The notes beneath the pieces were generated by a model that was not told the DNA's origin, made no database searches, and saw only the letters and a program-made list of their open reading frames with translations. Positions 10,901 to 55,908 of a stretch of 64,000 bases of DNA are shown in pieces. Numbering within the stretch: position 1 is the first letter of the stretch; every line of letters begins with the position of its first letter. The translations under genes were made by a program, and so were the position numbers. The DNA lies in NCBI RefSeq assembly GCF_032854445.1, contig NC_088295.1, forward strand, positions 24,167,385 through 24,231,384. Direction: 5' to 3'. This DNA is from Liolophura sinensis. Lineage: Eukaryota; Mollusca; Polyplacophora; Chitonida; Chitonidae.

Positions 10901-11274
10901 CCAATAGCAACCACAACACAGTACCAAGGCCAGCTGGGTCTTTGGGCTTTGAAACACTTGTGCACATCACAAATAATGACAACAGCATTGTTCATTTGCT
11001 GCATTACCAGGCAAAGCATGCTAGTATTAGTACGCAAACTCAAAAACTTCTACCTTTAGACAAGACAATACTTCCCTACTAACTTCCCAATACCAAATGT
11101 TTAAGAGATCTGTATGGACAAGGAGGCAATAGATACATGAACATGTTTTACCTTTAGTCTTATTTAATATTTCTAGCTAAATCTGACCAAATAAATCATT
11201 TATACCCAACCAGCAGGGACAAAACAGTACATGTGCACCAATACATTATTTGCACAGATTTATACAAGGACAGG
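1931..11274. other. AT-rich non-coding stretch, no gene supported
   Basis: I found no recognisable protein, splice-linked exon set or RNA gene on either strand. Short open frames have no domain signal and low-complexity composition. Visible landmarks are an A16 tract followed by a GA-rich run (about 5112-5140), many copies of the palindromic word 'tacatgta', and one old SINE fragment (see 10030-10215). It may be intergenic, or an intron of a gene outside the window. Confidence 0.6.
10030..10215 (+). repeat. Old SINE fragment, 3' part (family D)
   Basis: The segment has 'gagagttcatcagtaattt', then 'tcgtataaatggaaaattc' and 'ctgagtatagcattaaac', and ends in ctaactaactaaataaataaat-type repeats. 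The 'cgtataagtg...attcttgagta..gc.taaac' end is shared with SINE-A in this window. The 'gagagttcgtcaataactg' part is shared with 29216-29384, which has a tRNA-like head. Probably one SINE family split over two truncated copies. Confidence 0.55.
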
Positions 11275-12842
11275 ATAACACTGTACATGCGTGTCTGTGA
11301 AGATGTAGACATGGTGAGGATAACACTGTACACGTGTGTCTGTGAAGATGTAGACATGGTGAGGATAAAACTGTACATGCGTGTCTGTGAAGATGTAGAC
11401 ATGGTGAGGACAACACTGTACATATGTGTCTGTGAAGATGTAGACATAGTAAGGATAACAATGTACATGTGTGTCTGTGAAGATGTAGACATGGTAAAGA
11501 TAACACTGTACATGTGTGTCTGTGAAGATGTAGACATGGTGAGGACAACACCGTACATGTGTGTCTGTGAAGATGTAGACATGGTGAGGACAACACCGTA
11601 CATGGGTGTCTGTGACGATGTAGACATGGTGAGGATAACACTGTACATGTGTGTCTGTGAAGATGTAGACATGGTGAGGACAAAACTGTAGTACATGTGT
11701 GTCTGTGAAGATGTAGAGTGAGTGAGTGCTTAGGGTTTAACATCGTACTCAACAATTTTTCAGTCATATGACGACGAGTGAAGATGTAGACATAGTAAGG
11801 ATAACACTGTACATGTGTGTCTGTGAAGATGTAGACATGGTGAAGAAAACATTGTACATGTGTGTCTGTGAAGATGTAGACATGGTGAGGACAATACTGT
11901 ACATGTGTGTCTGTGAAGATGTAGACATGGTGAGGACAACATCGTACATGGGTGTCTGTGAAGATGTAGACATGGTGAGGATAACACTGTACAAGGGTGT
12001 CTGTGAAGACGTAGACATGGTGAGGATAACACTGTACATGTGTGTCTGTGAAGATGTAGACATGGTGAGGATAACACTGTACATGCGTGTCTGTGAAGAT
12101 GTAGACATGGTGAGGACAACACTGTAGTACATGTGTGTCTGTGAAGATGTAGACATAGTAAGGATAACAATGTACATGTGTGTCTGTGAAGATGTAGACA
12201 TGGTAAAGATAACACTGTACATGTGTGTCTGTGAAGATGTAGACATGGTGAGGACAACACCGTACATGTGTGTCTGTGAAGATGTAGACATGGTGAGGAC
12301 AACACCGTACATGGGTGTCTGTGACGATGTAGACATGGTGAGGATAACACTGTACATGTGTGTCTGTGAAGATGTAGACATGGTGAGGACAACACTGTAG
12401 TACATGTGTGTCTGTGAAGATGTAGACATAGTAAGGATAACACTGTACATGTGTGTCTGTGAAGATGTAGACATGGTGAAGAAAACACTGTACATGTGTG
12501 TTTGTGAAGATGTAGACATGGTGAGGACAATACTGTACATGTGTGTCTGTGAAGATGTAGACATGGTGAGGACAACACCGTACATGGGTGTCTGTGAAGA
12601 TGTAGACATGGTGAGGATAACACTGTACATGCGTGTCTGTGAAGATGTCGACATGGTGAGGATAACGCTGTACATGTGTCTGTGAAGATGTAGACAAGGT
12701 GAGGATAACACTGTACATGCCTGTCTGTGAAGATGTAGACATGGTGAGGATAACACTGTACACGCATCTGTGAAGATGTAGACATGGTGAGGATAACACT
12801 GTACATGTGTGTCTGTGAAGATGTAGGCATGGCGGGGATAAC
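11275..12842. repeat. Minisatellite, 45-bp unit, about 33-35 copies
   Basis: Tandem copies of a 45-bp unit containing 'tgtacatgtgtgtctgtgaa', 'gatgtagacatgg' and 'tgaggataacac'. Because 45 is a multiple of three, several frames stay open on both strands, with apparent ORFs of up to 545 codons on the minus strand. These are best read as repeat artefacts. A 3-bp insertion ('ctgtagtacatg') marks positions near 11690, 12126 and 12399. Blocks between these marks repeat in the same order (about 11425-11690 matches 12140-12400; about 11790-11960 matches 12430-12600), showing higher-order block duplication. Confidence 0.95.
11718..11777 (-). mobile_element. 60-bp SINE-B tail inserted in the minisatellite
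   Basis: Sixty bases, starting 'gtgagtgagtgcttagggtt' and ending 'cagtcatatgacgac', are the reverse complement of the 3' end of the SINE-B copies at 62450-62655 and 63085-63430. The fragment is bordered on both sides by the same 13 bases 'gtgaagatgtaga' (11705-11717 and 11778-11790). These look like a target-site duplication, although the same word also occurs in every minisatellite unit. Confidence 0.85.
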
Positions 12843-15800
12843 AGCAACCTGTAAAGGGAAATGTTGTGTTTTCTAGGTGGCATGAGTCATAAGATGGATG
12901 GTTGAAGACCCTTTAGTGTATGGATAACTTTTTCTAGTCCACAAAATTGTCTGAGTGATTCTATTATTACAACATGCTTATTTGAAAATATGTTGAGGAA
13001 ACAGCTTTGAACAAGGATAAGGTCAAGTAAAATTCATTTTCTGTTTCTCAGGCACTTTTTCTCATGCTGAAATGATATCCTTAAAGACATCTTCTTAAGC
13101 AAAGCTGTTTATGATTAATAAAATGTGAAATACTTTTTTATTTCACTTTTGCTCTGATGGCAATGGTTACTGAAGGAATTTATCTGCCAAAAACATCTAC
13201 AATTTCACCTACTGTAGGAGACGGACAGAACACAATTCTCCTGAAACCCGGCAGTAAATCAAGACACAAGCTCATTTGTGACCAGGAAGGACTTACCATG
13301 TATCTGGTCATCTTAAAACTTTCTTAGTGTAAAAGATGCCAAAACTGTTCAGTGTCGATCCTGATAAGGGTATGCTAACAACAGCAGCACGCTAAACAGG
13401 GAAAGTGTCTTGAACACCTCTTCAAGTAGCCTAGTATGTCCTGGCTATCAATGGGGCAAGCCAGGGGCCGCAGCATATGTCCCTTCCGGATATGTCTTAC
13501 TTTCGAAACTTTATTTTTGCAGTACATCCAGGTCATGTTCAAATCTCTGCAGGCTGAGTGAAGCTTCACGTAGATTGCAAGCTAATATTGTCCTTAGCCA
13601 CACGAATGTGGCTCAACTGATCTAATGATGCACTCACGTGCTTAGCAGACAGCGCCATACTAGTATCACACAAGATGTTCAACAGATGACTATCGGCAGC
13701 AGAACATTAAGTTTTAACAATGTTATTTTGTCCTAATCTGCATAAACTGGTTTCTGACACAAGACGTAAAGCCAACACGCGTGGTCCCTACTCCAATATG
13801 TATGACAAAATTAAACTATTTCAGCGCACAAGTTGCCTCAGCTTCGATGGGGTTGGTCACCATTTTTCGCTGCCGTACTCGCCATCATGTGACCTGGGGA
13901 TTCCCGCTGTCAGCTATAAATACATGTAGCTTGGGTGTCACACGGATGCATATTCATGTCACCACAACTGCAAAGGCTATCAAATAAATTACTTAGAATA
14001 TCCCTTAGTTCTTTTGATTTATTGAGTCATTGCAAACAACCTCTTTCCAAATATCACCTTGCGGTGACAAAATGACAGCCGCAATTAACACAGTTTACAC
14101 TCGACATCTGGCTCATCTGACGCTTCTCTGGTACTGTGTGTGACCCTTGGCCAATGGTCAGGGAAGCCCAGTAAAAACCACATCATGCAAAAACTGGGGT
14201 TTCATGATGTCACATGACATAAAATTGATTATTGCGTGAAATTTAGTCCAAACTTGGCGGAAGTATCCCGAAGCAAAGACGTTTCTTCAAAACATCAAGG
14301 ATTAACTCTACCGAGCCGCTGATCAGAATATAAAAGTGAAGCTACAGCTGTATGCAGACGTGATTTATCTGTTCATCAATGCATAAATCTACAAGGTCAG
14401 GATTTAAGGCTCCTGTTAAGGTAGCGCATTGCATCTCGGATCATTGCAGGAGTGTGTGAAGCTGACTTAGCAGCTCAGTACGATAGTACACTGTTAAATC
14501 TGCTGTTGGCCTCACTTGTGGAGCTAATATTGTCCTAAGACAAAATGAAACTTAAACATCACCTTCAGAGTTCAATATCATCAAAACAACAACTCCAACT
14601 CAGCTGCCTCCAAATATAAATATTTGATAAATCAACCTGACTCTCTTTGGACCATGTCCTAGATCCGGTTGTACTACTGCTTCAAGGCTTTTGTGGAGCT
14701 GTGTTATGTTCATGGGGCAATGCCATTATACCATGCTAGCTGATGCACATATCCCTATGAGGTGGGCAAAAGGGCCCTTGACAAAGATGATGCTTGTCAT
14801 GGTGCTAACTCTGGCTGGATCTCTCCCCCACTGGAGGCAGACATATAGTAAATTACGGCACCAGATCATGTCAAACATACAGCCATTCAAAACGTCACGT
14901 CCTAACGGCTCTTGGTTCACAGATTCCGATATGGCAATCTATGTAATATTTGCCCTAATTACACTGAAGACCCTTATTCTATATGTTTGGTTACATCTGA
15001 AGAAGACCTGCTGAAACGTGTAAAACGCTCCTAGTGATTGGTGTTAACCATCCTCATGTTTCCTCAATGGGAGACACCTAGTACCACCCCAAGTGATTGT
15101 GTGAAAGACCACCACCACCATACAGGGTGAGAAACAGAAAACCATTTTTTCACAGCCTAATATTTTGATTTTTGAAATCAAAAAGTTGCCTAGTCCAGGT
15201 GAAAACTGCATTCAAAGTTATTCATTAAAAGTTTTTAATGACAGGCCATGGGTATTCTATTATTCTGATGTTCTGTTCTGATGTTCTATTATTCTGATGT
15301 AAAATGAAACATCAATGACCTTTACAATTTTCATAACATACACTTACCCTATTTCCCACAAAGCATCAAGTGATACTGTCTGTTACGAACAAATTTCTAA
15401 TTACTCTTGCTCTTCTCACACTGTTCAGGTTTTCAATAATGCATAGAGAGGATCTGCATGTCACTGACGTGAAAAGTTTGTGTAAACATGTCTTTCCATC
15501 ACGAAAGATGCAATATATAGTATGTCATATTTATACATGTTCAAAAGATAGCACTGTGACTGCTAAATATCATAAAACAACAGCTATGCATACTTCCAAA
15601 TTGTAACCATATTTTCCCCAAAAAAGCAACAAAACAATTTCCAAATTTTATACAGAAATGATATGTATGAATATGTTTTGACTGTCGACAAAATGTAAAT
15701 ATCAAACTATCTTGGAGTCGAAATAGAGAGAATGTTAATGAGGATAATGTTACAGACAGTGACCCACATTCTACAAAAGAACACCATGTTCCTATTTTAT

Positions 15801-33129: not shown

Positions 33130-33790
33130 ACTGTGTCTGTACTCAAACTTCACAGGGCTGTGAACTCTCTACAGAAACCTCACAGGACTGCGAACAGTGT
33201 ACAGGAACCTTACAGGGCTGTAAAGTGTTTACAGGGACATCACAGGGCTACTGGAACCTTTACAGGGGTGTAAAGTCTGTGCTGGAACCCCACCAGGCTG
33301 TGAACTACGTATATAAGAACCTTATAGGGTTTTAAAGTCTGTACTGGAACCTCACGGGGCTGTGAACTCTGTACTGGAACCTTACAGGGCTGTAAAGTCT
33401 GTACTGGAACATCACAGGGCTGTGAACTCTGTACAGGGACCTTACAGGGCTGTAAAGTCTGTGCTGGAACTTCACAAGGCTGCGAACTATGTACAAGAAC
33501 TTTACAGGGCTGTAAAGTCTGTACTTTAACATCATGGGGCTTTGAACTCTCTACTGGAATGTCACTGTGAACTGTGCAGTGGAACATCACAGAGCTGTGA
33601 ATTGTGCAGTTGAACACGGTTATGAACTCTGCTGTGGAAATTCACAGGGCTTTCATCTCTGTACTGGGACATCATAAGGCTGTGAACTCAGTACTGGAAG
33701 GTCACAGTACTTTGAAATCTGTACTGAACGCACATGGTGGTGAACTGTGGTGGTGAACTTGTGGGGCTATGAACTCTGTACTGGACCCTC
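33130..33790. repeat. 30-bp tandem repeat in the PDPK1 3'UTR
   Basis: Starting about 70 bp after the PDPK1 stop there are about 20 degenerate copies of a 30-bp unit. They alternate between 'cagggctgtgaactctgtac' and 'cagggctgtaaagtctgtac' forms, so a 60-bp dimer is also visible. If the 3'UTR reaches any of the later AATAAA signals, the array is transcribed. Because 30 is divisible by three, the minus strand shows a spurious 125-codon frame. Confidence 0.85.
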
Positions 33791-34364
33791 ATAGGCCTAT
33801 GAACACGATGTATATATGATATATGGGCTCTTTGGTACTGTACTGAAAAGTATGTGTAGTAAAGTCAAGCTAGAACTAGAAAGTCGTAGAAATTTGATCA
33901 GAATAGTTGAAGTCATTATATAATGAAAACTTTTCACAATATGAACAACTTTTAAACTGGAAACTTGTAGTACTTTGATATGGTGTGTGGGGAGAGTGTA
34001 CTGTAGGACAATCACAGCAGTGTGATCTCTCTAAGTACCAGCGAGTCACAGGACAAGCCTGGTCAACTGGTCATTGATGCAGGATAGGTGTTAGGAAGCT
34101 TGTGTACATATTTAACAGAAACAGATGTAAATATTAGGAAGAAATGGATAATGAAAGACAAAGTTATATTGAGACCTTGTCATTTAGCTAATTTTAATGA
34201 GTCACTGTAGATCCATCACTTTTGGATCTACCCTATACAAATTTTGATGATGTTTGTGATTTATGTAAGGAATCAGGGCCAAACTCTGTGAAAAGTAATT
34301 TCTGAGAAATATATGTAGTTATCTGAAAATTATGGCGATGGTGTTGAGGTTTGAGTTGTAATGG

Positions 34365-44100: not shown

Positions 44101-46247
44101 CAGGGTTTTTGTAGTTGGGCGTGAAAAAGTCTTGAAGCAGAATCAATTCACATTGCTTTAATTTTGTATAACTAGAATATTTCTTCCAGGTAGTCTCGAG
44201 TATGTTGGCCTGAAATTCAAATTCTGTGAGGTTTAGGAACTCTGAACGAAGGAACAATCATCCAGCCATGTAATCGTGCTGCTTTCATTTTAAAGTGCAT
44301 CATTCCTGCAGTTTTGCATAGAATTTCATCCCTTTAACACAGTATCTTTGTAAAATAATAAATATATCAAATATATAAAAAAATTAATTGTATGTTTTAT
44401 TCATTTGTTTACAGTGCTACCACCTCCTCCACAAGATATGGGTAACAACTTCTTCAACCTCCAGCAGCCTCCCCCAATGATGCCCCCACCCCCTCCAGGT
44501 GGACCACCCAGAGGCCCTCCACCCATGCACCCCATGGGAGGTCCCATGGCGCCCATGGGACACATGATGAGAGGACCACCACCCCCAGGTATACCTTTTA
44601 GTTCAATTGTGTTTATTTAAATTGTTAAGTATCATTCATTCATCAACACAAATAAGATATAATCATTATAAACTATTATGAACCAGAAATTTCAGTTTAT
44701 CTGGAATCTTGAATCCTTGTTAAAGGGTATTATTAATGTTAGGCATTCCAAGTATATGATTGATGTCTGGTATTTCTTGGAAACATAGAAATATATTTCC
44801 CTCAGACCCTGACTATGAGCCTGTAGACCATTATATAACATATGTCGCAATGCAGAATGAGCCAAGGTTCTGGTCTGTCCAGTGTCAGTATAATGTGACT
44901 AGGCCATGTGTCATTTCTAGTGTCTTTAACATGGCTTTCCAGTGAGGCACAGAGTCAGGCCTGCTACAAGGAGACAACATCGCCATAAAACTGAATTATT
45001 ATTAAAAGTAACCTATCAAGCCAACAATTCATAATGCAGTCATCCTGGCTTCCTCTCAGGCTGTAGGTGAGAAGGTCGGATGACAACCTGCGGTGGTCGT
45101 GGGTTTCCCCAGGACCCTGCCCAGTTTCCTCCCAAACATAATACTAGCTGCTGTCATATAACTGAAATATTCTCGAGTACAGCATAAAACACCAGTGAAA
45201 TATATAAATCATAGTGAAGAGCTTGAAGAAAAAAAAAAATTAAGGCATTTGTGGTTACGCCATTCTCAAGTTAAGATAAGTTAGTGGTTGTACATAATCA
45301 CATTTGGCAGAATAAAAACATTCAACATGTCATGAACACAGGTGCCTCTAACCATTGTAGTCACCTGATGTTGGCTTCCTATCCCTTTGTGTAAGGGGAA
45401 TGTGGGTCAGCTACCTGTAGACGGTTGTGGGTCTCCCCCAGGCTCTGCCTGATTTCCTACTACCATAACACTGGCCATTGTTATATAAGTGAAATATTCT
45501 TGCGTATGGGGTAAAATACTAATTATATAAATAAATAAATCATCGGGTCATTGTATAAATTCATGCTCAACATTGATTCCATCAGTATCTGGTAATACTT
45601 GCATATGCGATTTGCATATACATCCCAATTATGTGATTTATACTGCAGTAGAGTCAGAGCTTAATCAGATCATTCGGATCTATTATGTCTATTTGATGGG
45701 TGTTTTACGCGGTACTCAAGAATATTTCACTTATACAACGAGAGGCAGCATTATGGTTAAGGAGGAGAAACCCACGAGCAGGTTGCTGACAGACCTTCCC
45801 ATGTACGACCAGGGAGGAAGCCAGCATAAGCTGGATTTGAACTCACAGCAACTGCATCGGTGTAATCAGATCAAGAAATGAATTGTATGGAATCTTGGCA
45901 GGTTGGATGCCATTGTGAGGCAATTTAGTCAGATATATACAGCTGTATAAATATAATTTTAATATGCTGTTGTACTGAAGCAGTCATAAGCTTCACTATC
46001 CAGCTGTCCTGTTTGTAACTGTTCAAGTCAGTTATATAACACCAATCAAGGTTATATTATATACATGTATTTATTATAGATTACCCCTCGGTTACTAGTT
46101 AACATTAAGTGTTCTTATTTTACAGGGATGAGGTTACCACCCCCACCACCTGGAATGATGCCCATGAGGCCACCCCCAATGCCGCCCCGAGGGGCTCTTC
46201 CTGTACACTACCCATCTCAAGACCCAACTCGTATGGGAGCAAAATAA
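38155..46247 (+). CDS. RBM22: Pre-mRNA-splicing factor RBM22 (9 coding exons)
   Basis: RNA-binding protein of the spliceosome (yeast Cwc2-related), which contacts U6 snRNA and pre-mRNA near the catalytic centre. Exons: 38155-38208, 38562-38615, 40084-40246, 41804-41904, 42155-42330, 42785-42985, 43331-43572, 44415-44588, 46126-46247. All junctions are GT..AG and in phase, giving 428 residues (human 420). The N-terminus [18 protein letters not shown] is followed by a cysteine-rich part with repeated CxxC pairs (to about 90). A CCCH zinc finger (C166, C174, C180, H184) sits in [19 protein letters not shown]. An RRM spans about 232-305, with LYVGNL and CAFVQF as RNP-like strands. The C-terminal tail is rich in Pro, Met and Gly and ends in a conserved [13 protein letters not shown]-type peptide. 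The start is the first ATG, matching known family N-termini. An ETS site lies upstream and a poly(A) signal 118 nt after the stop. Confidence 0.97.
38977..39238 (+). mobile_element. SINE-A, full length with 11-bp target-site duplication
   Basis: Best copy of this family in the window, 262 bp, in RBM22 intron 2. The tRNA-derived head has an A-box-like 'tggctcagttggttagcac' and a B-box-like 'gtgagttcaagtcaatc'. The body has 'cttccccttcggccgtacgt' and 'gccgccgtcgtataagtgaa', and the tail is a degenerate ATAAATGAATAAA. The word 'tatcgtctgca' borders both sides (38966-38976 and 39239-39249), a clean target-site duplication that fixes the ends. Confidence 0.95.
39904..39992. repeat. Two-copy 49-bp direct repeat in RBM22 intron 2
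   Basis: 'ataattcctgtttaatggta' followed by 'caggcatt' occurs at 39904 and again at 39953, an offset of 49 bp, with few differences. It is about 90 bp upstream of the exon at 40084. Confidence 0.85.
40638..40800 (+). mobile_element. SINE-A, 5'-truncated, RBM22 intron 3
   Basis: It contains 'cctctttggccgtaagtggg', 'gcagcaacctgtggatggtc', 'ataagtgaaatattcttgag' and a tail of AATAAATAAATAAATAA. The head is missing. Confidence 0.88.
41218..41520 (+). mobile_element. tRNA-derived SINE (family C, SINE-B-like tail), RBM22 intron 3
   Basis: The head reads like a tRNA gene 5' half and T-arm: 'tggttagagcattcgcctca', then 'ccagggatcaaacccaggaa' as B box. The right part ends 'tcatgtgactgaaaaattaa', the same kind of end seen in SINE-B ('tcatatgactgaaaaattgt'). 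It cannot be a functional tRNA, because the sequence after the head does not close an acceptor stem. Confidence 0.7.
45040..45210 (+). mobile_element. SINE-A, truncated, RBM22 intron 8 (first of three)
   Basis: The SINE-A body is visible as 'ctggcttcctctcaggctgt', 'ggtcgtgggtttccccagga' and 'aactgaaatattctcgagta', with a weak ATATAAAT tail. Substitutions are numerous, so it is an older copy. Confidence 0.8.
45343..45540 (+). mobile_element. SINE-A, diverged, RBM22 intron 8 (second of three)
   Basis: Recognised by 'ttggcttcctatccctttgt', 'ggttgtgggtctcccccagg' and 'ataagtgaaatattcttgcg', ending in AATAAATAAAT. It is one of the more diverged copies. Confidence 0.75.
45690..45870 (-). mobile_element. 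SINE-A, inverted copy, RBM22 intron 8 (third of three)
   Basis: On the plus strand it reads 'gtgttttacgcggtactcaa', 'gaatatttcacttatacaac', 'ggaggaagccagcataagct' and 'ggatttgaactcacagcaac', the reverse complement of SINE-A including part of its tRNA head. It faces the two plus-strand copies in the same intron, so the transcript could form a long double-stranded hairpin. Confidence 0.85.
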
Positions 46248-47181: not shown

Positions 47182-50100
47182 TTATTCTAGGACTGTTACT
47201 AACAGTTTGGTGGTATCGGTGAAGCGTCCATCGTTAACTGTGATCTGAAAGGACACACAAGAAGCAAATACATATAACCTGTCATCGAGTAAGAATCACT
47301 CAGAAAAAGCGATTTTTTTTGGGCTTAGGCATTTTTAGGGTGTGGGTAAATGGTAATTTTACTCTGCGTTTTAAGGCTTAATTGAGATATGAATTTTACC
47401 AACCCATAAAATAGCTTGAAAGAACCGCCGAAAAGCACACACATTTATTTATCAAATTAACTATTCCAGCGAAAGTCTTAAAATTCACAAAAATGTCTAA
47501 ATGGCGAAGGTGTTGATCTAACAGAAATATAAATTAACATTGACAGAAAGATAACCCTACTTTTTTTGCAGCTCCGACTAGTAGGAAACTACACATTTTA
47601 TACATACACATATACATATTGTGTAGGAAGTGAGGTTAGATTGGCAGAAAAGGAGGAAAAGGTAGGTCTTCCTTCTACAGTTTTTGATAGTAAGCATATG
47701 CTTACAGGACACCATCGACTTTAAGTAACAGTATTTAGGTTTAGTCTTATTTACGTACTGTTGTGGAATAAGGTTTGTTGGTCATGGCGCTACATCGATG
47801 TGCCACTTCGACTAAATCTAATTTGGCACTCAACATACAAAACAAATTCTCATTAAATCGTTCAACTCCATGGTACTTACAGTAAGCTTGAAGGAAAGGT
47901 CCGTAACATCAGCCATGGACTTCTTCAGGACGATGTTCGTGATATTTTCAATTTCAAACACTTCTTTTTCATTCCCGCTCGATATTTTGTACACCATCTG
48001 GAGAACACAGTGACACAGGGTTATACCCTTACGGGTTGTGAGTCCACGCGGGACAGAAAAACTTATAAAGGCCTCAGTGTAACAAGAACTATTTAGTCAT
48101 GGGCATAGTACGTGTCCTAGGTAACGCCTTAAGAAATCGCGCACATTATATGATCTCTATTTGGCCGTTCTCTTGAAGGCCTAATGCAAAGAGGGTAACA
48201 GAAAGAATAAATGGGTGTGCATGGCTTTGCGCCACAGTGACAATATTTCAGGCATTTCGTGGCACACGATGCCTGACCAGAGAAACTTTTGGACCTTAAT
48301 CATTAGGCTTCCGCTGGCCATAATAAGAAAGACCATAAACTGATTGAACGTGTACTAGTACCAATTTGTTATAATAGAGGTCAAATGAAGAGAGAAATAG
48401 CTCGTGCCCAACAAGCCATATTTGTGTCTTAAATGTTTCATCTTCTTGTAGACACAGGTCGGCAAAAGAATACTTAATTTGCCTTCGGCTTGAAATTCAT
48501 CATATTATAACGAGGCTTTCACATTCCACAATTATGCAGTGACGCCACTGACAGATAGGCCTATCAATCTTTACGTTCCAAAAACATTCACATCTATTGC
48601 CAGCAGCAAAACACATGCTCCTGAGGAACACTGAATTTCTTTTTAAGACGGAAAGATGCCGTGTATATTAGAGCCATGGCCTTTCTAGCGCGATTATATA
48701 CAATCTTGTAAACACTACAAAACAGGGCTATGCTCTAAGGAGAATGATGGCATTTGGTGGAGTATACATTTGACAACATTACCTGTGAGAGAATGTCAGA
48801 ATCGATGGCCCACACCCGGTAAACAACCGCACCCTTGACAGCATCTCTAGGTATGTGTGCCGTCATAGCCTCAAAAGGAAAAACGGGTGGGTTGTCGTTG
48901 ACGTCCGAAATAATTACATTAACCTGGAAACGAAAATATGTACATATGACTCTGTAAAAGACTGGCAAAATGAGGAGCTGTATGTAGATTTTGTGTGAAT
49001 GGTTTGATTTTGATTCTCTGAAAATTTATGGGGCCTCCGTGGCCGATTTAGTTAGCACGCCAGCGCGGCGCAATACGACAGAAGCCTCTCACCAATTCGG
49101 TCACTGTGCGTTCAAGTCCAGTTCATGTTGGCTTCTATTCCGATCGTACGTGGGATGGTCTGCAGCAACCTGCGGATGGTCGTAGGTTTCCCCTGGGTTC
49201 TGTCCCGTTTCGTGCCACCATGAAAGCCATGAGCATTCTGATTTTAAATTACCAGCTTCTCATCTTCTACATAGCCTCTTCGTACAATACACGACTCGTT
49301 ACTGCGCCGACTTCTTCACGTATATGTATAAATACATCGCAATAAGTTTCTCTAGTTTTATTATCTTACCAGTGCGATCACACTTATACTTGGGTAAACC
49401 CCCTTAAGAGGTAAATACTCATATGTTTTTTTAGCTGTCCTGTAAAAATATGAAAGCCTTAATGGAGCGAGTGAATGCTCGAGGTTCAACGTCACATTAA
49501 CCATTTTTTTCAGTCATGTGACGACCGTGCCTCCTTTTCGCTGGACGGATTTCCACTGCTCTTTTATCTACTGCTGCTTCACTGAGACGACTTACCGTAA
49601 GGCAAGTAAGCGGCTCCACCCGAGCAATTATACTGATACGGATCAACCAGTCGTTGCACCGCCCCTCAATGCTGAACGCCCAGCGAGGGAAGATACAACT
49701 TCCTCTTGTAAGGTCTTAGGTGTGACCCGACCCAGGATTGAACCTGGATCTACCGCCACCGAAGCGGACACTCTGCGAACTGAGCCATTGGGGCCGGTAA
49801 AGCCCTGAAGGAAGCACTTTCACTAGTGTTGGTACTGAGCAGTTGTTTTCGCGTGTGTATAACAAGGCCTGTGCTGAAACACCACAGAACGTAACCTACA
49901 TGTTGTTTATACGGACAAAAACACCAGAGAATGTGACCTAGACCTACATGTTTTTTATACGGGCAAAAATTTTCGTTGTTGTCAATGTATAACCCGTAAT
50001 AACGTGAGTTTCAGTATTGCTGTATATAAAGACCAAACTATAAATAGATGAAAAGCTTTATATCCTCTGTTGTACCATAACATCGGAGTTGAGTGAGATG

Positions 50101-53100
50101 TCGTTGGCGTTGGTCGCCCGCACTACCAACGCTGTTCGCTCCATGATCTCTCTGTCGAACTGCTTCCGGGAACGTATGACACCCTGTGGGAAAACGTCAA
50201 ATAGATGTTCATTTACGTCAACACGAGCGTCTAATAAATACCGCATAAATGGAAAGAAATCAAGGATAAGTCGGCAGCTTCAAGTAACCGATCTTCAGGA
50301 CAGTTAGATGCCTATTTCTGTAATATCTAGATCTCTCCTTGACACGCTGTACTGAGTATTGCACTACAAATGGATACCGTTTGACATATTCGGTGGTTCC
50401 CCAGCTGCAGAAGCCTTAAATATTATCTAATTAACGAGCAAATAATGTGGATATTGTACATGATTATGTTCTGTCGTCTAGTTCAATACTCATTATAATT
50501 ACAGCCTTTTTGTAAGTAGGGCTGCGAATTATGGTTTAACGAGGTCGTATATGTGAACAATTTGACTGGTAAGATTTTTCTCATTCTTGTTATACCAGTG
50601 GTCAACTCCGACCTAAGGGACCTACTGCAGCGAACCGATAGAGTACCGCTGACATTGTGAAGGTGAATTTCCCAAGACGTTTACCTATTCCTACGCACTT
50701 ACCGAGGTGGAATTGACGGTGAACATTTGCTGAGCTGTACTGCCGATGATGCTGTATACAACCTGAACATCGGACTGCTCCGCCATAGCTGATACTGTCG
50801 CTACAACGTTACCCGCGGCGGTGTTTTCCGGGAACGTCACGGCTACAAATCCTGAACTGAATTGGGGCTGACCCATTGCTGGGCTGTATGCTTCTATATC
50901 CATGTCAGTAAACCCACTCAGTCGTGGTTGTCCGTTATCGGTGACCTGGATTCGCAGACGGTACACTGTTCCAAGAGTCAGTGCAGTCTTGGTAGTTAGC
51001 TGACCCGTCCTGGCATCCAAAGAAAACACACGTGGGTTTCCAGAGACCAAGCTGTAGTCCACGCGGCTGTTGTCAGTGTTCCGCTGGTCTCCGTCCCACG
51101 CGTGGAATGTGTATACAACTCGGCCAACGGGAAGGTTTGCTGGGACGCGAAGCGGGGAAAGGACACCGAAAAACATAGGTGGGTAGTCATTGACATCGAT
51201 TACCGTTACTCGAACATTTACCGGGAGAACTGCTGAGCAAGAAGAATTTGGTTTGGGGGAGATGGTGAGGTCGTAGTATGGCTGGGTCTCAAAGTTTAGA
51301 GGGAAGGAAACTAACAGAGCGTTTTCGTCAGAGAGAATAAACCTCCCAGAATCCGGTGTGATGGTGTAACTGGAGCCGGGGACACAAGGCAGGGGGTGGA
51401 TGAGATTCAGTATCACTGCACCCGCCGTATTCTCCGAAACTTCCACATCAAAGGAACGTTCTGGTGCAGCCTGTCTCGTCACGGACTGGGAAGGTAATGG
51501 GACAGACAATGCCTGGACTCTTACCCTGACCAGTGCTGATGTCCACAAGCTGGGCGTCCCTTGGTCCCTGGCCAGCACCGTCACTCGTATGTCATCTGTG
51601 GGAGGCGGTCTAGTTATGGTAATCTGGCCGGAAACTCGGTTTATTGCTAAGTATGGAGAAGGGTCTTTGATGCTGTACTCTATTGCGCCGTTCATCCCAG
51701 TGTCCTTGTCAAACGCCATTACTGTTAATACAGGCGTATCTGGTTTGATGTTAGAAGGTATGGCAACGTCGTAGAGACTCGGTAAAAAGCGTGGTTTTTC
51801 ATTCATGTCAGTAATATCAATAATGACTGTGGCCGAACTGGACTCAGAGTTTTGCCCTAATGCCAAGACCATCATCACGTAATGCGATCGATCTTCATAG
51901 TTCAGGATTTTAGTGGTCAAAATGTTACCGGTTGAACTCTCAACAGTGAAAACGTCAGCACCCAGTAACTTTATCTCAGTAAAATCTCCAGATGGTTTAA
52001 GCTGAAATGGATATAAGTCAATGTGAACTAGAAGCCTTAGTTAAAATATATAGGATCTATTTGTTATTTTTTTGTCATAGATGTGAATTTAAAAAAGTCA
52101 TCATTTAATAGTATAGTCCTAGAACCACAAGTCATCACGATAAGCTAATATAGTTCTAGAAGCATTTAGCAGAGATAGTCTTTCATAGTTATACGAAGAA
52201 AGTGTTAATATCTTCCAGTAGAAATAAGCACACAAAAACACGACAGCAAACAAGCACGAACTATTTACCTGACCAACAATCGTGGAGACAGGGCTGTTTT
52301 CAGGCACGGTCAGCTTGTATATGCTCTTCGAAAAATGCAGTCCGTTTTGCACACGGGCCAAAACTGTGGCAAATAAAGTAAAACTATAACAATGTCTGCA
52401 CTTTCTCACCTGAGCCCATTGACGAACATAAATATACCGGTACATAAAGTTCGTGTGTTGCTTATATACAGGTGTGAAATACACGCGCCTTTCTGCATGT
52501 GTATGAAGTCTGCAGTCACGTTTTTTGTGAAACTTTTTAAGAGATTCCCACTTAAGACGTCGTCAAACAGATTTCAAATATACATGCAGGAGAATAAAAC
52601 ATATTTGCACAGCGAAATTAGGATTTAAAAGTAGCCTTTAAACAGTGTTAATCCTAATAAACTAATTTTTTTTTTATAGAAGTGCGTATACAAATAATGC
52701 ACAATCTTAATTTGCCAATAGGCCTGGTATGAATTGCGAAATGTTTCCCCCGGGCTGTGCCCGGTTTCCACCCACCATAATGCTGGCCGCCGTCGTATAA
52801 GTGAAATATTCTTGAGTACGGCGTAAAACACCAATCAAAAAAAAAAAAAAAAAAAATTGCGAAATGACCAGGCATGTAAGGCGTATTATGTACAAAGTGG
52901 GTCTGTACAGGCCAATAACATTATTTCCACTTTGCGCAAAGCCACAATGCAGGGATAAACTACTCAGCCCAAAGGTTCAACACATGTTTCTTATCTGTGG
53001 ATACAAAATTACAAAACCTAACATTTCATCTGTAAGCTATACATAACTTACTTGTGTAATTGCCGAGTACCAGTACCAACAGAATACAACGGAACATCTG

Positions 53101-53369
53101 TAAGCTATACATAACTTACTTGTGTAATTGCCGAGTACCAGTACCAACAGAATACAACGGAACATCTGTAAGCTATACATAACTTACTTGTGTAATTGCC
53201 GAGTACCAGTACCAACAGAATACAACGGAACATCTGTAAGCTATACATAACTTACTTGTGTAATTGCCGAGTACCAGTACCAACAGAATACAACGGAACA
53301 TCTGTAAGCTATACATAACTTACTTGTGTAATTGCCGAGTACCAGTGCCAACAGAATACAACGGAACAT
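47182..53369 (-). CDS. Secreted-type cadherin-repeat protein, six EC domains, no membrane segment
   Basis: Predicted exons on the minus strand: 53369-53324, 52363-52269, 52001-50703, 50183-50076, 48923-48783, 47997-47881, 47244-47182. All are GT..AG and in phase, giving 622 residues. The N-terminus MFRCILLALVLGNYT is a signal peptide. Six cadherin (EC) repeats follow at about 27-119, 120-228, 229-325, 326-427, 428-531 and 532-622. Family marks include VPEN, DITDMNEKPRF, ARDQGTPSL, IDVNDYPPMF, VTDNGQP, FDREIMERT and SDVNDNPPVF, which bind calcium between repeats in this family. EC3 has a lone cysteine pair (C253, C302). The protein stops at the end of EC6 with no transmembrane or cytoplasmic part, so it may be an extracellular matrix or soluble protein. 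A missed alternative 3' exon could supply a membrane anchor. The gene converges on RBM22. Confidence 0.88.
49029..49215 (+). mobile_element. SINE-A, 3'-truncated, antisense in a cadherin-gene intron
   Basis: The complete head 'ggggcctccgtggccgattt' with 'agttagcacgccagcgcggc' is followed by B-box-like 'gtgcgttcaagtccagttc' and 'acctgcggatggtcgtaggt'. The last third with the tail is absent. It lies in the intron between the exons at 50076 and 48923. Confidence 0.88.
49465..49800 (-). mobile_element. SINE-B, near full length, sense in a cadherin-gene intron
   Basis: Read on the minus strand it starts with a tRNA-like head ('ggccccaatggctcagttcg', B box 'ggttcaatcctgggtcgg'). It continues with the central 'cttgccttacggtaagtcg' region and ends in 'tcacatgactgaaaaaaatg' and a CATTCACTCGCTC end. 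It is in the same orientation as the cadherin gene. Confidence 0.85.
52744..52854 (+). mobile_element. SINE-A, 111 bp, 5'-truncated, poly(A) tail and 12-bp target-site duplication
   Basis: Only the 3' part of SINE-A is present ('ccgggctgtgcccggtttcc', 'gccgccgtcgtataagtgaa', 'gtacggcgtaaaacaccaat'), followed by about 20 A. 'aattgcgaaatg' borders it at 52732-52743 and 52855-52866. Its sequence is close to the copy at 38977-39238, so the insertion looks recent. It sits in the first cadherin intron, antisense to the gene. Confidence 0.95.
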
Positions 53370-53372
53370 CTT
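53033..53372 (-). repeat. Five-copy 68-bp tandem array containing the cadherin signal-peptide exon
   Basis: Five head-to-tail 68-bp units start at plus-strand positions 53033, 53101, 53169, 53237 and 53305. Read on the minus strand, each unit is a 46-nt segment (ATG...ACACAA, coding MFRCILL(A/V)LVLGNYT plus one base) followed by 22 nt that begin GTAAGT and end TTACAG. The copies are essentially identical, except that the gene-proximal 5' copy has Ala where the others have Val. Only that copy is preceded by non-repeat sequence and a good start context (accaagATG). Confidence 0.95.
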
Positions 53373-53459
53373 GGTCACAAGGGCTCGGCAGATGTGTTTC
53401 CCAATGACATCAGTGTACAAGTCACGAACACCTAGCAGGCCTACCGTTAATACCACTGT

Positions 53460-54209: not shown

Positions 54210-55908
54210 CGCCCCTTGCTTCAATGCATGCAAAAATTCTCCGACGCATATAGAAAGTCAGTCGTCTAATGAGGTCACGTGAGATACGATGCCGTTCTTC
54301 GTCAAGAGAATGTATCAGTTCTTGTCGGTAAGCTGAAAGTTGTGCTCGCTGTCTTACCCGGCTATCCAGGGCATCCCAGGGGTGTTCTGTGGGAGACTTG
54401 TCGGGGCAACGTACAGGACATGGTAAGATGTTGATGTCGTTGGCGTCAAGGAAGTTCTGTACGACTTCACTCTGGCGTTGTCATGCTGTGGATGCTGGCG
54501 AAAGAAGGGCAGAACAATCGAACGTAAAATGTGATCCACGTAAATATAAGCGTCAAGTCCGACATTCCTATACCATTCGTAGTCCGTAAAAGCCGTTCCA
54601 AGTCGATAATCGCAAGATCCATTTCCAAAACAACGTTTAACACTAACTCCCGAAGACAAAGGTATGTAAGAAATTATACAAATAAGAAATAAAGCCGGTA
54701 ACACACAAGAGAGAAGCAGTCATCAGTTTTCAATGATGCCGGGCAGACAATGAATATTCCAGGCATGAATTCCTTATCAAAGTCCAAATTCGTAGTCCGT
54801 GAATGAGTTCCATGTCAAATAACAGCTAAACAAGTATCTCAGTCGCGCTTTCATTGCAACTGTTCATAAAGGCATTATGCTGATGTAATTAGCATGGCTA
54901 CCTTTACGGCCCCTAGCCCCAGGTTAATCGGTATTAGATACAGTTTGAAAATGACGAGCTTTACAGACCCTAACCGATCAGATTATGATTCAAAAGCCGA
55001 GCTGTTAAGTTCCCATCAATGATGACCAGTGCACGTTGTCCGTTCCTGTCCACAAATCCCTCCCCATACCCCCACCACCATACGGTACCACCTCCTGAAC
55101 GCAAGCTAAGGCCAGTCTTTTGCCTCTTCGACGGCATACACGCTGTCTTCCATCAGCTCTGAACAGACAGAAGGGACTTTCATGTGTGAAGACGACCCAT
55201 TGCCAATCACGTTGCAGCCAATGTCGTACAATTAGGGCCAACCTCATCCTCTGACGACGATGTTGGACCGCCAATAACTGCCCTCTTAATGGGCGATAAG
55301 CCCGGGTTCCGTGATTCCGGAGTCTCCTGGACACTGCCGACGGAGCCGATGACCTAACGCATTCAGCAACGACGTCACAGCCAGGAAGCGGTTTCGCAGA
55401 TGCAAGGCGTGGTTACCCTAGGTCTGCCTGTTCTTGGCCTGTCTGAGGTCCGTCCTGTCTGCCTGTTCTTGGCCTGTCTGAGGTCCGTCCTGTCTGCCTG
55501 TTCTTGGCCTGTCTGAGGTCCGTCCTGTCTGCCTGTTCTTGGCCTGTCTGAGGTCCGTCCTGTCTGCCTGTTCTTGGCCTGTCTGAGGTCCGTCCTGTCT
55601 ACCTGTTCTTGGCCTGTCTGAGGTCCGTCCTGTCTGCCTGCTCTTGGCCTGTCTGAGGTCCGTCCTGTCTGCCTGTTCTTGGCCTGTCTGAGGTCCGTCC
55701 TGTCTGCCTCTTCTTGGCCTGTCTGAGGTCCGTCCTGTCTGCCTGTTCTTGGCCTGTCTGAGGTCCGTCCTGTCTGCCTGTAAAGCAGCATCAGATTGAT
55801 AACGGTTACACGAGAACAGTCAAAAGTTCTTGCAATGTCAGCATGAGTGACTCTCGTAGCCACCAAACCCAGGGCCCTCTCACGTTGTTCTGGAGTGAGT
55901 TGTGGCAT
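54210..55908 (-). pseudogene. Decayed Tc1/mariner-type transposase
   Basis: Pieces on the minus strand, in order: ATG at 55908 followed by MPQLTPEQRERALGLV and an HTH ending SRVTVINLMLLYRQTG; a 35-bp tandem array; GRPRVTT; the catalytic core RQRMRLALIVRHWLQRDW...WVVFTHESPF (about 55330-55080); then AYIYVDHILRSIVLPFF and HPQHDNARV (about 54560-54460); then SPTEHPWDALD (about 54360). The family uses a DDE triad. The first Asp, normally in F(S/T)DES, is His here, while the second Asp (HDNA) and the Glu region remain. About 400 bp of unrelated sequence (roughly 54600-55000) interrupts the core and there are frame changes. The protein cannot be active. Confidence 0.9.
55424..55790 (-). repeat. 35-bp tandem array, 10 copies, inside the transposase linker
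   Basis: On the plus strand 'gtctgaggtccgtcctgtct' recurs with an exact 35-bp period at 55441, 55476, 55511, 55546, 55581, 55616, 55651, 55686, 55721 and 55756. On the minus strand the unit codes RQTGRTSDRPRTG in one frame, and the two other frames are also stop-free. It derives from the (Y)RQTG..DRPR.GRPR linker between the transposase DNA-binding and catalytic domains. Confidence 0.95.

Follow-up and report, generated by a model that had tools for sequence, protein, structure and literature searches.

A probable young minisatellite across the predicted first coding exon and donor of a chiton cadherin-repeat gene

In a 64,000-nucleotide stretch of the genome of the chiton Liolophura sinensis (NCBI RefSeq assembly GCF_032854445.1, contig NC_088295.1, positions 24,167,385 to 24,231,384 of the forward strand; hereafter the window), the predicted signal-peptide exon of a cadherin-repeat gene lies in a tandem array of five 68-bp units, each with an ATG and a splice donor. 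We consider it likely that this array is a young minisatellite, made by slippage across the first coding exon and the first donor, of which only unit 1 is used and the rest is tolerated. Transcription would begin upstream of the array and the ATG of unit 1 would be used; the spliceosome, by analogy with human factor VII intron 7 and with the exon-boundary repeats of amphioxus called mirages, would take the most upstream donor, leaving units 2-5 as harmless sequence of intron 1. On this view the array would not be maintained by selection but tolerated, is probably neutral, and would be expected to differ in copy number from one individual to another.

Results

Structure of the array

The array consists of five contiguous units of 68 bp, head to tail on the minus strand (53369-53030), and was recovered by Tandem Repeats Finder (TRF) at 53027-53371 with period 68, 5.1 copies and 99% match. 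Each unit is composed of 46 nt (ATG and 43 nt, up to the donor ACACAA/GTAAGT) followed by a 22-nt spacer of the form GTAAGT...TTACAG, GTAAGTTATGTATAGCTTACAG. This make-up had been described in an earlier note on this DNA and was confirmed by the sequence and by TRF, with the array placed 3 bp lower than in that note. The units, which the note had called perfect, are identical in the case of units 2-5; unit 1 differs by one base (position 23, C for T, codon 8, Ala for Val). Unit 1 has A at -3 of the ATG, where units 2-5 have C. In a DNA-level search of the 609-Mb genome, one locus matched the array; the tool may miss matches, so that rarity is not proven by it. An introner or other dispersed mobile element, for which many dispersed copies would be expected, was rejected on this single locus, subject to the same possible misses.

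Gene model and identity of the first exon

A seven-exon gene model starting in unit 1 is open throughout its 622 codons (Table 1). A Pfam search of the 622-residue model returned four cadherin stretches and a FAT4-like N-terminal cadherin domain at residues 31-94 (4.7e-13), which directly follows the signal peptide of the model. Because a hydropathy scan of the model after residue 25 found no second strongly hydrophobic stretch (best 19-residue mean 1.11, against 1.6 at the N terminus), the predicted product looks secreted. Open leaders of 30-120 nt that run from an ATG to a donor were collected as a control from both strands of the window. Of these 131 leaders, 35 were in phase 1, and nine of the 35 had a hydrophobic core; all nine lie inside the array, where they correspond to the five unit ATGs and to four ATGs in hairpin loops in frame with the next unit, and are thus copies of one sequence rather than nine independent cases. 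We infer the exon-intron boundary at the array from the evidence of frame, phase and domain. The reading of the repeated segment as a signal-peptide exon, put forward in the earlier note, is upheld: it ends in phase 1, joins exon 2 at 52363 and is followed by the cadherin domain from residue 31.

Cadherin-repeat stretches are plentiful in the genome, with at least 112 matches. A second, diverged cadherin-repeat gene lies on the same strand (L010, C1:24231001-24241000), with matching exons about 11-14 kb upstream and 31-32% identity over one exon; in this 10-kb stretch, which may stop short of the first exon of that gene, no match to query residues 1-27 was found. The better of the outside hits of a genome search with exons 1-2 (C1:23960923, E 1.11) was rejected as a single-copy relative of exon 1, as it reads as an internal cadherin exon and not as a signal-peptide exon. 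No single-copy relative of exon 1 was found in the L010 stretch or in the one hit inspected from this search, whose other outside hit (C12:13464059, E 3.46) was weaker.

Consequences for reading frame and splicing

If nothing is spliced within the array, reading from the ATG of unit 1 yields the 622-residue protein with donor 1, 55 codons with donor 2 and 42 codons with donors 3-5. Pyrimidines make up a fraction of 0.50 at -20 to -5 of the acceptor-like end of the unit, which also has an AG shortly before it; in the gene model, the six acceptors have fractions of 0.69-0.81 and lack such an AG. Because of these frame outcomes, the poor acceptor-like ends and the A at -3 found only in unit 1, the simplest working transcript would start upstream, use the ATG and donor of unit 1, and leave units 2-5 in intron 1.

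Origin of the array

The word AGATG stands at both edges of the array; homology of at least 5 bp at random breakpoints 68 bp apart has P = 0.0126 in the window. The 22-nt spacer forms an 8-pair hairpin that starts exactly at the donor GU (-7.1 kcal/mol for the 22-mer, z -3.71). All five GTRAG sites of the array, together a single independent case, begin a hairpin of at least 8 pairs; outside the array this holds for 1 of 108 minus-strand sites and for 1 of 150 plus-strand sites. Longer folds gave z -2.62 (unit 1 with 21 nt upstream) and z -2.34 (two units), values that we attribute in part to chance pairing with the flank and to the repeated sequence. On sequence grounds, the AGATG edges and the hairpin at the donor suggest slippage. 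The coincidence of the unit boundary with splice signals would then be best explained by the position of a duplication breakpoint, with AGATG at both ends, rather than by a splice-bounded module.

Under this mechanism the ancestor would have had a single copy with an AGATG at either edge, the two at a distance of 68 bp. Having copied the downstream AGATG, just past the hairpin-forming 22-mer, a nascent strand would have re-paired with the upstream AGATG and the segment would have been copied again; unequal exchange or more slippage could then have led to five copies. Units 2-5 show 0 differences over 272 bp, which bounds their divergence at about 1.1% per site, and the recent origin claimed earlier from the near-identity of the units agrees with this.

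A second array, at a carboxylesterase exon

The genome was searched with the pattern GTAAGT...CAGATG...GTAAGT, whose lower gap of 15 excludes the array of the window (gap 13), so that the search says nothing on the rarity of that array. It returned 84 forward and 218 reverse matches, compared with 81 and 117 for the reversed control; among the matches listed, many of the reverse ones fall in a few long arrays. An excess of donor-carrying arrays over the control was not clear in this search and none is claimed. Six array stretches were fetched from the matches listed, chosen by eye for exon-like units or many copies.

One of the six (L032, C2:27482001-27485500) contains a carboxylesterase exon (COesterase, E 1.8e-126, profile positions 3-472 of 515), of which the last approximately 40 nt and the donor are repeated six times at a spacing of 79-82 bp, with older, diverged copies beyond. 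Its units also have a pyrimidine-rich stretch and a CAG before the exonic part. By eye, the next exon reads as the esterase C terminus; a Pfam search of the 92-residue reading of this exon alone matched no family. With no splicing inside the array, only donor 1 of the eight exact donors leads to the 601-residue reading, and donors 2-8 all stop at residue 524, the first read-through stop. Here the main part of the exon precedes the array and, if the gene is active, donor 1 should therefore be the one that works. This locus is the best support within the genome for use of the first donor in the cadherin array. The other five stretches held no clear gene by reading of their open reading frames (ORFs).

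Alternative explanations

Several points weigh against a slippage origin with use of unit 1 only. As a whole, the 68-nt unit folds no better than shuffled sequence (z -0.36), the tests of hairpin and microhomology were chosen once the sequence was known, and the hairpin covers donor 1 too and could weaken it. When identical donors compete, the intron-proximal site is sometimes preferred, which here would give upstream ORFs. The ATG of unit 1 is also not the 5'-most, as had been assumed: another at 53410 starts an ORF of 11 codons, which closes before the ATG of unit 1 is reached, computed with an arbitrary transcript start at 53440 and present only if transcription begins far enough upstream. 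Finally, splicing inside the array can keep the frame from the ATG of unit 1: with one intron there, 3 of 20 combinations do so, including two whose introns measure 90 and 158 nt, and with two introns 1 of 21 does. The earlier claim that only donor 1 gives a protein from this ATG therefore stands for transcripts unspliced within the array and fails for some of those spliced within it. The combinations with one intra-array intron, the in-frame joining of four exon copies and the GT and AG that bound each unit are what favors tandem exon copies that are spliced together or alternatively included, as new exons or introns in the making. We regard this as very improbable: joining 2, 3 or 5 copies gives 51, 63 or 97 codons (one or four copies keep the frame), and the spacer of 22 nt is shorter than animal introns are known to be and ends in a weak acceptor with a nearby AG, although introns of at least 90 nt that skip units could be spliced, two of them in frame. 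The view of each unit as an exon with a usable donor and acceptor is not supported by such a spacer and acceptor.

It is unlikely that the units act as equivalent start cassettes, with transcription starting upstream of and inside the array, each transcript using its first ATG and donor to make the same protein, and copy number or donor choice tuning output through upstream ORFs. Every donor k with the ATG of unit k does give the full 622-residue protein, so an internal start would be harmless, and an upstream start with a later donor leaves ORFs of 42-60 codons before the true start; set against this are the poorer -3 base of the later ATGs and the near-identity of the units, a sign of youth rather than maintenance. 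We give slightly less credence still to a self-copying start cassette (ATG, signal peptide and hairpin-held donor), whose copy number would be a heritable, fast-changing dial on the expression of the gene. That the array lies outside the mature mRNA, as promoter or intron DNA of a gene whose start is in a different exon or at an ATG of an extended exon 2 (MYRYIYVRQW...), seems quite improbable. An open frame with a Met does reach upstream of the exon 2 acceptor, but this acceptor is strong (pyrimidine 0.81), the alternative N terminus is less hydrophobic (best 8-residue mean 2.2 versus 3.5-3.8), the phase of exon 1 fits, and a signal-peptide exon stands just before the N-terminal cadherin domain. 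Short tandem arrays with almost identical copies are well known to be collapsed or falsely expanded in assemblies. The assembly, published under the name L. japonica and later corrected to L. sinensis, was made from PacBio HiFi coverage of only 14X, according to the part of its report used here (PMC11068029), but with a mean length of 8,347 bp its HiFi reads far exceed the 340-bp array, and unit 1 has its own base, so that an artefact is barely credible.

Young arrays in the genome and other features of the window

A survey of 20 stretches, each of 10 kb and placed in advance at round positions of six contigs, gave 26 tandem arrays (period 20-200, at least 3 copies), 5 of them at least 95% alike; the window has 8 and 2, respectively. 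Scaled up from only five cases, this is roughly 15,000 young arrays genome-wide. Given this estimate and the 28,010 protein-coding genes that the genome report gives in the part consulted (PMC11068029), random placement would by our arithmetic put some tens of young arrays on a first donor.

At 55422-55781 a 35-bp array of 10.3 copies (98% match) lies within open frames with repeats of TDRPRTGRQDGPQ. Its context is presumably a relic resembling a Tc1-like transposase; a Pfam search of two frames there gave no match. Larger and more diverged minisatellites (periods 30-110) lie at 1-1923, 11272-12843 and 33145-33804. Intron 1 of the cadherin-repeat model holds a dispersed-repeat-like insert at 52732-52866, a T tract followed by GATTGGTGTTTTACGCCGTACTCAAGAATATTTCAC, edged by perfect 12-bp direct repeats AATTGCGAAATG (52732-52743 and 52855-52866) that look like a target-site duplication. 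By eye, similar stretches lie near 45500 and 45190.

Table 1. Positions of the array and of the predicted exons in the window
Feature	Position	Strand	Comment
Unit 1	53302..53369	-	Coding part of exon 1, 53369-53324 (MFRCILLALVLGNYT + 1 nt), and first 22 nt of intron 1; unit predicted to be used
Unit 2	53234..53301	-	Identical to units 3-5; Val for Ala
Unit 3	53166..53233	-	
Unit 4	53098..53165	-	
Unit 5	53030..53097	-	
AGATG, upstream copy of 5-bp microhomology	53367..53371	-	Array edge; TRF partial sixth copy; direct reading
AGATG, downstream copy of 5-bp microhomology	53027..53031	-	Array edge; direct reading
Hairpin GUAAGUUA-UGUA-UAGCUUAC	53304..53323	-	Contains donor 1; same in the 22-nt spacer of every unit
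Exon 2, 95 nt	52269..52363	-	N-terminal cadherin-like domain begins here
Exon 3, 1299 nt	50703..52001	-	Cadherin repeats
Exon 4, 108 nt	50076..50183	-	Weak predicted donor ATG/GTACAA
Exon 5, 141 nt	48783..48923	-	
Exon 6, 117 nt	47881..47997	-	
Exon 7, coding part with TAA stop, 63 nt	47182..47244	-	End derived from 622 codons + stop minus exons 1-6

Discussion

The two loci seen here suggest that exon-boundary minisatellites occur in a mollusc, and the cadherin array suggests that one repeat unit can hold a start codon together with all of the coding sequence of a signal-peptide exon. A row of identical cassettes, each with a start and a donor, offers a natural experiment on the choice of the spliceosome between equivalent donors and on the possible first steps towards new exons or introns; because unit 1 is marked by a single base, RNA reads could reveal which donor is used. 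If the array is neutral, it is a caution for gene prediction, as exon 1 could be annotated at any of five equivalent sites.

Comparison with known systems

Clustered alternative first exons, as in the vertebrate protocadherin and UGT1A loci, are diverged, have their own promoters and encode different proteins. The chiton array resembles such clusters in having several first exons before a common exon 2, and differs in that its copies are of 68 bp and near-identical. In human factor VII intron 7, the start codon lies outside the repeat and each repeat contains a donor. There the donor stands in the first of several 37-bp repeats and normally only the most upstream one is used, as stated in the portion of the source drawn on (PMC6627357); the carboxylesterase array matches factor VII intron 7 more closely than the cadherin array does. 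Intron gain by tandem duplication (PMC4974935, PMC2891723, PMC2812944) likewise involves a tandem duplication with splice-like signals; unlike those cases, the chiton array shows no new intron, and its spacer of 22 nt is too short.

Although the earlier note knew of no standard description for an array of this kind, repeats at exon boundaries have been described, both in factor VII intron 7 (PMC6627357) and in the mirages of amphioxus (PMC3087553). Mirages are minisatellite-like tandem duplications of exon-intron boundaries, found in Adh3 and in the globin genes BflGb6 and BflGb9; the passages of the source available to us give splice signals in many units, haplotype length variation, edge units that escape homogenization, and regular splicing (PMC3087553). 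The chiton array has the anatomy of a mirage: its 68-bp units span the predicted exon-intron boundary at the exon 1 donor with splice signals in the units, and an edge unit stands outside the homogenized ones, by the single base that sets unit 1 apart from the identical units 2-5. In the open-licence literature searched, no mollusc mirage and no start-codon-carrying mirage was found. As far as those passages describe mirages (PMC3087553), the chiton array differs from them in lying in a mollusc and in a unit that holds the start codon with the whole coding part of exon 1, and its novelty is that each unit carries a start codon plus a donor.
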